From NCBI GenBank assembly GCA_958295775.1, contig CATQHC010000002.1, positions 1,201,830 through 1,265,829 on the forward strand: DNA of 64,000 bases. Direction: 5' to 3'. Position numbers and translations under genes: made by a program. Under the pieces are notes generated by a model. It did not search any database. It saw only the letters and a program-made list of their open reading frames with translations, and was not told where the DNA came from. Every line of letters begins with the position of its first letter. The stretch's first letter is position 1. This DNA comes from Chloroflexota bacterium (GTDB taxonomy: Bacteria; Chloroflexota; UBA11872; VXOZ01). Below, piece by piece: positions 50,843 to 54,110 of this stretch.

Positions 50843-51925
50843 CTAGCGTCTGATGCGCGCCGAGCCACCCGCCGCGAAAGCGCGCACGTCATCCACCGTC
50901 GCCATAGTGGTATCGCCGGGGAAGGTAGTAATCAGGGCGCCGTGCGCCCATCCCAGTCTCACCGCGTCGGCGGGCTCCTCACCCGTAATTGTCCCGTAGA
51001 TTAGCCCGGACGCGAATCCGTCACCGCCGCCGACACGATCGTAAACATCGAGTTCTGCGGTAGGCGCCAGGTGGGTCTCGCCATTGATCCAGGCTACCGC
51101 GCTCCAACTATGCCGGTTCGTCGAGTGCACTTCACGGAGGGTTGTCGCCACGGTCTTGACCTGCGGGAACTGCCCGACAACCTGGTCGATCATGGCGGTA
51201 AAGGCGCTGGGGTCGAGTTTTGACGTCGCGGCCACCTCCGGCCCTGGAATGCCGAGACCGGTCTGCAAGTCTTCCTCATTTCCAACCAACACATCCACGT
51301 TCTCCACAATTCGCCGATTGACTTCGCTGGCGCGGTCTTCACCGCCCCAAATCTGCCAGAGCTTTGCGCGAAAATTGAGGTCGTAGGAAACCACTGCGCC
51401 AGCGGCCTTGGCCGCCTGCATGCCCTCGATGATCACTTCCGACGTCGTCGGTGAAAGCGCCGCAAAGATACCGCCGCTATGGAACCAGCGCACGCCGCCC
51501 GCAAAGATGGCATCCCAGTCAAAGTCACCGGGCTTGAGCTGCGCCGCCGCCTCGTTGCAGCGGTTGTAGAAGACCACCGGCGCGCGTACGCCCTGACCGC
51601 GGTCGCTATAGACCGTCGCCATATTTGGCCCGTTCACGCCGTTGTGCGCAAAGTGCTTATAAAAAGGCGTCACCCCCATCGCCCGCACGCGTTCGGCAAT
51701 CAAATCGCCAATGGGATAGTCCGCCATCGCCGAAACGACTCCAGTATTCAAGCCAAAGCAGTTGGCCAAGTTTGCTGCAGTGTTAAACTCACCGCCGCTC
51801 ACATGTATCTCGCACGTGTGCGCCTTGCGGAAAGGGATGATCCCGGGATCGAGGCGGTGCACAAGCGCGCCCAGCGAAATAAAGTCACGTGCCGCATCGG
51901 CATTGATATCCAGACCGTAACTCAT
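50843..51925 (-). CDS. PfkB-family sugar kinase (2-keto-3-deoxygluconate kinase-like)
   Basis: ISGGEFNTAANLANCFGLNTGVVSAM; YDRVGGGDGFASGLIYG. Confidence 0.85.
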   Translation of the reverse strand: MSYGLDINADAARDFISLGALVHRLDPGIIPFRKAHTCEIHVSGGEFNTAANLANCFGLNTGVVSAMADYPIGDLIAERVRAMGVTPFYKHFAHNGVNGPNMATVYSDRGQGVRAPVVFYNRCNEAAAQLKPGDFDWDAIFAGGVRWFHSGGIFAALSPTTSEVIIEGMQAAKAAGAVVSYDLNFRAKLWQIWGGEDRASEVNRRIVENVDVLVGNEEDLQTGLGIPGPEVAATSKLDPSAFTAMIDQVVGQFPQVKTVATTLREVHSTNRHSWSAVAWINGETHLAPTAELDVYDRVGGGDGFASGLIYGTITGEEPADAVRLGWAHGALITTFPGDTTMATVDDVRAFAAGGSARIRR

Positions 51926-52313
51926 GGTTTTCTCCTTACAAATAGAGCAGTCCTACGTCTTTTCCCCAAATTGCCCACCTGGCAATTGCGGCTTGCGCAG
52001 CCCGCCGCACCGGTTTACACGCTACCGCTACCTATACAATTCAGCTAATGGGATTATATACGTGAAGCCCGCCAAGTATATAGGCAACGGCACGGGCATG
52101 GTTCGGTCAGCGTGCGATCAAGCCGGTGTCGATGCGGGAGAATTTTGCTTGCCAATCGTTTCAAGGAACGCAATTGGCGCCGAAGGACCATGACTGGTGC
52201 GCCTGAGCCTAAGAGAGGGAAAGCCGCTCTATGTCTCTCCAAGCTCGTCGCGAGCTGGTTTCAGATTACGCGAAATTGCAGGAGCGCTTAGCCTTCACTT
52301 GGGCCACATCTTG

Positions 52314-52343
52314 TTGCTCAGGCAGCGAAATCGATGCTATTAT
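52314..52343 (+). promoter_or_regulatory. Candidate extended -10 promoter TTGCTC-18-TATTAT
   Basis: TGC preceding TATTAT; upstream of the ModA-like gene leader. Confidence 0.4.
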
Positions 52344-52398
52344 GACTGCATGCTGGTGATGGATTGCCAGGACTCGGACAAGGAATTGGATGCGTGCA

Positions 52399-52434
52399 GC
52401 CTCCTGTAGTACAAAGGCTACGGGAGGGCTTTTC
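52399..52434 (+). terminator. Terminator-like hairpin in the leader of the ModA-like gene
   Basis: AGCCTCCTGTAG-TACAAAGG-CTACGGGAGGGCT followed by TTTTC (one bulge, one wobble), about 25 nt before ATG 52457. Confidence 0.6.
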
Positions 52435-52456
52435 ATTTAAGGCGTAGAAAACCCCC

Positions 52457-53272
52457 ATGAGCGACCGGCGCACATTGTTGAAGGCCGCAGTTCCGGTTGG
52501 GCTTGCCGCCATCACCGCGGCGTGCGGCCCGCTCGACAAAGCACGATCCCTTCTGACACCCGATGACCGGGAGCAGGTCGCCGTGCTGGCTGACGCAAGC
52601 CTCGCGCCCGTATTTCCTGCATTCAAGGCGGACTTCGAACGCGCGAACCCGCACGTGTTGCTGTCAGTATCATTGCTTTCCTCCGGCGCGATTATGAAAA
52701 CCATCCTGGGCGGCAAACGCTTCGACGCCGTGCTGCTCGCGGGGGATACTTTCGCCGTCCCGCTCGTCGATGCAGGCCACATCAAGATCGGCACCATGCG
52801 CCCAATCGCATCCAATTGGCTGGTAATCGCCACCGCAGGCAGCAGCACACTTGAGCTGCAAACTCCCCAAGACCTCCTGCACGACACGGTAAGGCGCATT
52901 GGGGTCGCCGACTGGGAGCAATCATCGCTCGGCATATATTCCAGACAGGCCTTGGAAAATCTCGATATGTGGGAAGTTCTTGCGGCAAAGCGAGCAAAGA
53001 GCAAGGATGAACGAGAACTTACCGAGAGACTCCTGGGCGGGAAGGTGGACGCCGCTTTGCTCTATTCTTCGTCCGGGAGTACCGCTGAAGAAGTCATCAA
53101 TTCTCAAGCTCCGGTGCCCGAGCACAGCCACCGACCCATCATCTACTATGCGGGCACAGCGCGTGAGACCAAGTATCCCATCACCCTCTCGCAGTTTTCC
53201 AATTACCTGATCAGCCAATGGGGCCAGCGCCACTTCGCAGATGCCGGCTACCGCATGCTCAATTTGCGCTAG
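52457..53272 (+). CDS. ModA-like (molybdate-type) periplasmic substrate-binding lipoprotein
   Basis: Twin-Arg-like SDRRTLLKAAVPVGLAAITAACG; VAVLADASLAPVFPAFKADFERANPHVLLSVSLLSSGAI. Confidence 0.75.
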   Translation: MSDRRTLLKAAVPVGLAAITAACGPLDKARSLLTPDDREQVAVLADASLAPVFPAFKADFERANPHVLLSVSLLSSGAIMKTILGGKRFDAVLLAGDTFAVPLVDAGHIKIGTMRPIASNWLVIATAGSSTLELQTPQDLLHDTVRRIGVADWEQSSLGIYSRQALENLDMWEVLAAKRAKSKDERELTERLLGGKVDAALLYSSSGSTAEEVINSQAPVPEHSHRPIIYYAGTARETKYPITLSQFSNYLISQWGQRHFADAGYRMLNLR

Positions 53273-53294: not shown

Positions 53295-54110
53295 ATGTCT
53301 TTCAACGACCGACTTAGCAAAGTCTGCGCCCAGAAGGATAGTACACTCTGTATCGGACTGGATGTTGACTTGTCTCGTCTGCCCGCAGGTGTGCCGCAGA
53401 CCCAAGCCGGCGTGGTCGCGTTCTGCCGCGAGATTGTAGATGCCACTCACCAGTACGCCGCCGCGTATAAGCCCAATTCCGCCTTTTTCGAAAGTATGGG
53501 CACGTGGGGATTGGAAGCGCTGCTCGCGGTTCGGCAGCACATTCCGCCGGACGCAATCGCGATTGACGACGCCAAGCGCGGCGACACGGATTCCACGAAC
53601 GTCCATTACGCCAGGGCCATATTCGATGTGCTGGGTTTTGACGCCACCACCGTGCACCCGTACCTCGGCGCCGAGGCACTGCAACCTTTCCTCAGGCGTG
53701 CAGAGCATGGCGTCTTTGTGCTCTGCCGCACGTCAAATCCGGGCGCGCCGGAATTTCAGGACCTGCGCAATTCAGCGGGTGACCCACTCTATCTTGCTGT
53801 AGCCGCTGCCGTACCGTCGTGGAATGAAAACGACAATTGCGGTCTGGTAACGGGCGCGACGTATCCTGAAGAATTGGCGCAGGTGCGCCAATTGGCACCC
53901 CACCTGCCGCTATTGATACCGGGCATTGGCGCGCAGGGCGGCGACCTGCAAGCATCGGTGCGGGCCGCTGGCACTGCCGCGCCCATGCTCATCAACGCCT
54001 CGCGGAGCATTCTCTATGCCAGCGGGGAACGCGACTTTGCCGAGGCGGCCGCTGCGGCAGCCAGGAAACTTCACGGCGATATCAACCGCACGCGGGCGAC
54101 AGTTACGTAG
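53295..54110 (+). CDS. pyrF: Orotidine 5'-phosphate decarboxylase, type 2
   Basis: LCIGLDVDLSRLP; YKPNSAFFESMG; IAIDDAKRGDTDSTNVHYA; LIPGIGAQGGDLQ. Confidence 0.93.
   Translation: MSFNDRLSKVCAQKDSTLCIGLDVDLSRLPAGVPQTQAGVVAFCREIVDATHQYAAAYKPNSAFFESMGTWGLEALLAVRQHIPPDAIAIDDAKRGDTDSTNVHYARAIFDVLGFDATTVHPYLGAEALQPFLRRAEHGVFVLCRTSNPGAPEFQDLRNSAGDPLYLAVAAAVPSWNENDNCGLVTGATYPEELAQVRQLAPHLPLLIPGIGAQGGDLQASVRAAGTAAPMLINASRSILYASGERDFAEAAAAAARKLHGDINRTRATVT

Follow-up and report, generated by a model that had tools for sequence, protein, structure and literature searches.

A putative attenuator-type leader, conserved within an uncultured Chloroflexota genus, encloses its terminator in a mini-ORF upstream of a ModA-like lipoprotein gene and pyrF

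The locus and its gene order

Within the 64,000-nt window, i.e., the whole stretch of DNA that was analyzed, a gene at 52457-53272 (+ strand) encodes a ModA-like solute-binding protein (SBP; Pfam SBP_bac_11, 1.5e-30). The protein scores just under the cut-off of the TIGR01256 modA model, among solved structures it is closest to molybdate-binding proteins (E = 1.6e-28), and its N-terminus (MSDRRTLLK..TAAC) looks like a Tat signal with a lipobox Cys at position 23. The product is thus probably a ModA-family lipoprotein exported by the Tat system. The initial annotation had described this gene as ModA-like without visible modB or modC. Neither adjoins it, but a modA-modB pair was found on another contig (C5), and the SBP gene is a second, diverged ModA-type copy in addition to that pair. 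The gene that follows after 22 nt is pyrF (53295-54110, + strand; TIGR02127, 2.3e-71), encoding orotidine-5'-phosphate decarboxylase. It had been overlooked as the next gene of the operon, as had the mini-ORF that encloses the terminator described below. On the other side lies a divergent gene for a PfkB-family sugar kinase (50843-51925, - strand), in the same arrangement as in congeners. The upstream gene is therefore on the opposite strand, as first described, and there is no upstream + strand operon that would need a terminator.

The locus was compared across five species of one uncultured Chloroflexota genus, this one included. Orthologues of the SBP gene were found only in the four other species, with 62-73% identity. 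A phylum-wide profile search with the protein returned, outside the genus, only remote ModA relatives belonging to other families, and the gene was unmatched in a sixth genome of the genus, which is 69% complete. The SBP gene is followed by pyrF in all five species, and the longer order uvrC, pyrF, SBP gene, leader, divergent sugar kinase is likewise kept in 5/5, with a second sugar kinase beyond the divergent one wherever the contig extends that far. Some variation was seen between uvrC and pyrF. In the congener G003, a gene judged by its sequence to encode a MerR-type regulator is located there (L049:2728-3609), and the other species are without it. In G001 the gap contains a tandem array (L050:2647-3366), one frame of which reads repeated PPFALSLSKCGPATRRSDL; this is probably a dispersed palindromic repeat, and copies of FALSLSK are present also in L048 and L051.

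Promoter, terminator and mini-ORF of the leader

The sequence upstream of the SBP gene can be aligned in the five species from a -35 element to a TTAA just 3' of a hairpin, with conservation that climbs at the -35 and extends to the stop codon of the mini-ORF. The -35-like element is TTGCTC (52314-52319, + strand; TTGCYS in 5/5 species), followed by an extended -10, TGC TATTAT (52335-52343, + strand, with TATTAT at 52338-52343; TGN TAYYAT in 5/5). The spacer is 18 nt in every species and the TG is always one base upstream of the -10, which bears out the TTGCTC-18-TATTAT promoter with extended -10 proposed at the outset. From the -10 spacing, transcription is predicted to start at about 52350. 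The leader so defined, from the predicted +1 to the mini-ORF stop, occupies 91 nt (52350-52440, + strand). Its pairwise identity is 52-77%, compared to 32-55% at four-fold degenerate sites of the SBP gene, indicating that the leader is under selection. R1, a covariance model built from the five leaders, found one strong copy each in 5/6 congeners (E = 3e-18 to 3e-23). No copy above chance was found in 35 other genomes of the class, and none before any other gene.

The most prominent structure in the leader is a predicted intrinsic terminator hairpin of 11 pairs (52400-52427, + strand) with a U-rich tail, CTTTTC (52429-52434, + strand), that is T-rich in 5/5 species. A terminator-like hairpin and T-tail had been noted about 25 nt before the SBP start codon (ATG at 52457), and folding and alignment agree with it. 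Taken alone the hairpin is unremarkable, no more than chance would give, since a consensus scan of 10 kb found seven terminator-like sites against 10.3 expected from shuffles. It is significant because it is conserved in five species: the stem is paired in 94.5% of the cells of the five-species alignment, and when the pairings of the whole structure are slid, the paired cells drop to 38-62%. Covariation in the hairpins of the leader is slight, with double changes at two pairs. The layout of promoter, terminator and operon is conserved in the five species with no upstream gene to end. An intrinsic terminator conserved within ~80 nt of a conserved promoter and ahead of an operon supports the term "attenuator" chosen initially. 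We consider it very probable that the leader, with its terminator, is a functional element, and on this comparative evidence it appears to be a real and conserved leader of the attenuator type. As a side observation, the 3' arm of the hairpin (52418-52427) reads CTACGGGAGG, identical to a core of the universal 16S primer site. This is probably a coincidence, since the congeners differ at this position (TGCGGGCGG).

The hairpin lies wholly within a mini-ORF of 16 codons plus TAA, MRAASCSTKATGGLFI (52390-52440, + strand), which has the same start, stop and length in 5/5 species and would encode a leader peptide with the consensus MxxA(S/T)(R/C)xxxx(A/T)GG(F/L)xx. It is preceded by a Shine-Dalgarno sequence, AAGGAA (52380-52385, + strand), present in four species and replaced by TAGGTA in G002, so that in all five leaders the ATG is 5 nt past AGGA (AGGU in G002). 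The hairpin starts 10 nt past the A of this ATG, and the stop, TAA (52438-52440), is just beyond the U-tract, a position past the U-tract that is kept in 5/5. Conserved columns comprise the Shine-Dalgarno, the ATG, the stem and the TTAA, and variable ones the spacer, codons 2-3 and the loop. Overlapping the stop is AAGG (52439-52442, + strand), a possible Shine-Dalgarno of the SBP gene, kept in 4/5 species and absent in G001. A longer SBP gene starting in frame through the leader was also considered and rejected, as that frame is open in G003 and G004 only.

How often such a frame arises was estimated by shuffling the unpaired columns while the stems were kept fixed, a test designed only after the ORF had been seen. 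Of 200,000 column shuffles, 32 reproduced a co-terminal ATG ORF of 10 or more codons, and four did so with a Shine-Dalgarno. Under looser criteria 37 of 30,000 shuffles gave an ORF, and the ORF remains when any one species is dropped. When both strands of the window were inspected for the same layout, only the leader site and one inside uvrC, in another frame, were found. The pN/pS of the mini-ORF is 0.85, near neutral, a value that the stem confounds; selection at the peptide level is thus not established, and the value would fit a role of translation itself and equally an untranslated frame. On balance we regard translation of the mini-ORF as likely. The promoter, the start and stop of the mini-ORF, the terminator and the gene order are all conserved by comparison; the evidence on the leader is comparative and in silico throughout and comes from five sequences of one genus.

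A possible ribosome-dependent attenuator and its alternatives

Our preferred reading, to which we assign a probability of about one half, is that the leader would act as a ribosome-dependent transcription attenuator of a two-gene operon, the ModA-like lipoprotein gene followed by pyrF. Transcription would begin near 52350 at the conserved extended -10 promoter. If a ribosome engaged the AAGGAA and ATG in time, its footprint would mask part of the hairpin at every codon, the masked hairpin could not form, and the polymerase would read through into both genes; in the absence of a ribosome, the hairpin and U-tract would release the polymerase before the operon. What we infer in this scheme is where transcription starts, that the mini-ORF is translated, that termination occurs, and in which direction control runs. 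When a ribosome footprint, assumed to span roughly -15 to +16 relative to the P-site, was masked at any of the 16 codons, the hairpin retained 0 to -7.5 kcal/mol, compared to -17.7 to -20.7 kcal/mol unmasked, so that a ribosome anywhere on the mini-ORF, even an initiating one, should block termination. In addition, since the stop lies past the U-tract, the terminated transcript would contain a frame without a stop. Masking at every codon and a stopless terminated frame together argue that translation and termination would be alternatives.

An intrinsic terminator that lies in or near an ORF can be suppressed by translating ribosomes (PMC4824070). In E. coli, however, unless the polymerase pauses, a ribosome is thought unlikely to catch it before 100 nt of a coding region have been transcribed (PMC4824070). 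Neither a pause site nor a U-rich leader was identified here, and the main weakness of the model is that a ribosome would seldom be early enough with no pause seen. The likeliest inputs would be how promptly translation initiates compared to the speed of the polymerase, or a factor that targets the 5' hairpin or the Shine-Dalgarno; a ligand may also act on either of these elements.

Other than ribosome-dependent attenuation, the leader could be a riboswitch for a small molecule such as molybdate, tungstate or Moco, as the initial annotation proposed. A terminator in the leader of a transporter-like gene would suit such a device, as would the 5' hairpin P1, CUGGUG-AUGGAU-UGCCAG (52353-52370, + strand), which is paired in 90% of the cells over the five species and is formed in 4/5 with G-U/G-C exchanges. 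However, the helix originally put forward, TGCATGC with GCGTGCA, is present as letters (with the second arm at 52392-52398, one base off) but not as a conserved pairing: over five species 40% of its cells are paired, the same as in shuffles, it pairs fully in this species only, and the predicted transcription start (~52350) falls within its 5' arm. The segment 52340-52456 folded alone is more stable than shuffles (z = -2.7), in a fold that partly uses bases at or before the predicted +1. P1 is lost in G002, which also has the weaker Shine-Dalgarno. Folds of the leader without the 3' arm share no competing helix across species, i.e., there is no conserved antiterminator among them. No Rfam family matched the whole window at gathering score, nor did any at gathering or loose thresholds when the window, the region and the five homologous loci were scanned. 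Only ~49 nt precede the terminator, much of this being the ribosome-binding site, with the mini-ORF Shine-Dalgarno and start codon accounting for a large part of the segment before the hairpin. With one candidate helix at the level of shuffles and the other broken in one species, no conserved aptamer with covarying helices and an expression platform emerged from the five leaders, no copy of the leader precedes another gene, and no counterpart turned up in the literature on molybdate leaders or Chloroflexi attenuators. The ligand-responsive reading is unsupported by these results, and we consider a riboswitch highly improbable.

The other alternatives keep the terminator and assign its control, or its purpose, elsewhere. 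A trans-acting protein or RNA, bound to the 5' hairpin or to the conserved GGAnnUGGACAAGGAA, could decide termination, either directly or by blocking the mini-ORF, which would then belong to the switch or be incidental to it. In four species, conservation ahead of the ATG is not confined to the Shine-Dalgarno, and RNA-binding pyr regulation is present in the genome, which encodes PyrR, with a PyrR-type leader upstream of pyrR in 5/5 species; but the PyrR element is absent from the leader (RF00515, E up to 5-10), the 5' hairpin is missing from G002 and there is no candidate protein, so we hold this to be possible though unlikely. Quite unlikely, in our estimate, is that the promoter-terminator unit chiefly makes a small RNA of ~80-90 nt, with the downstream genes expressed by leak-through or from another promoter. 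The unit is complete from promoter to terminator, sized like an sRNA and conserved in five species, but the gene that directly follows it is always the same, AAGG comes right after the hairpin in 4/5 species, and the conserved ATG and in-phase stop would be unexpected for a plain sRNA. It is clearly improbable, too, that the 5' hairpin and GGAnnUGGACAAGGAA constitute a novel sensor through which a specific metabolite, oxyanion or protein controls the access of ribosomes to the mini-ORF. If this were true, the leader would be an undescribed serial switch (sensor, mini-ORF translation, terminator) coupling an orphan ModA-like lipoprotein with UMP synthesis. Finally, the leader could be a fixed, unregulated attenuator that merely lowers expression of the operon, with the mini-ORF a by-product of a G+C-rich stem and a T-rich tail. 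This would be consistent with the near-neutral pN/pS and the slight covariation, but in-phase starts and stops with a Shine-Dalgarno were seldom reproduced by the column shuffles around fixed stems, which makes it very unlikely.

Relation to known leaders

The closest parallel to ribosome-dependent attenuation is found in E. coli pyrBI, where the leader ORF pyrL runs through an intrinsic terminator and the proximity of the ribosome prevents the hairpin (PMC5021804). As in pyrBI, a leader ORF with a Shine-Dalgarno spans the terminator with its stop beyond, here in an identical layout in five species, and a pyrimidine gene, pyrF, is within the operon that would be controlled. Unlike pyrBI, the first gene encodes a ModA-like lipoprotein and the U-rich pause region is absent, there being no U-run between ~+1 and the hairpin in 5/5 sequences. 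The leader ORF has 16 codons here, compared to 44 for E. coli pyrL. Most likely the leader is ribosome-dependent, and its resemblance to pyrBI would be one of action.

A pyrimidine gene behind a leader terminator is also the arrangement of PyrR-binding leaders (RF00515). However, RF00515 was unmatched in positions 51900-52700 even at E up to 10, and the five homologous loci gave nothing at E up to 5. The genus does have a PyrR-type leader with a terminator just upstream of pyrR in 5/5 species (G000:C2:817698-817786 [L057], and L058-L061); these score 45-53.5 bits against RF00515, just below the gathering score of 54, and would therefore be missed by default annotation. The SBP-pyrF leader lacks the PyrR binding motif and is dissimilar to them when aligned, and with a PyrR-type leader elsewhere in the genus it can be regarded as a separate device. 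Leader peptides of the trp/his/ilv type and antibiotic-sensing uORFs share the short ORF with its own Shine-Dalgarno before a terminator, whose formation would be set by the state of translation. In contrast to the trp/his/ilv type, there is no run of regulatory codons (no single-residue run beyond GG) and no conserved antiterminator, and the terminator sits within the ORF rather than after it. With the RNA elements related to Moco or molybdate, the leader has the ModA-like gene in common, but no shared structure, and no Rfam match in the window at gathering score.

The leader probably adds one more case to a known type of switch and is not a demonstrated riboswitch. It would be a compact natural case of a terminator nested wholly in a 16-codon leader ORF, from an uncultured Chloroflexota lineage, and it raises the question of how a ribosome reaches the start codon before the polymerase clears the hairpin. 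It would also bring a ModA-like lipoprotein and pyrF under a single switch, in a genus where the other pyr leader is of the PyrR type. More generally, a leader may resemble a riboswitch and yet turn out to be a translated mini-ORF.
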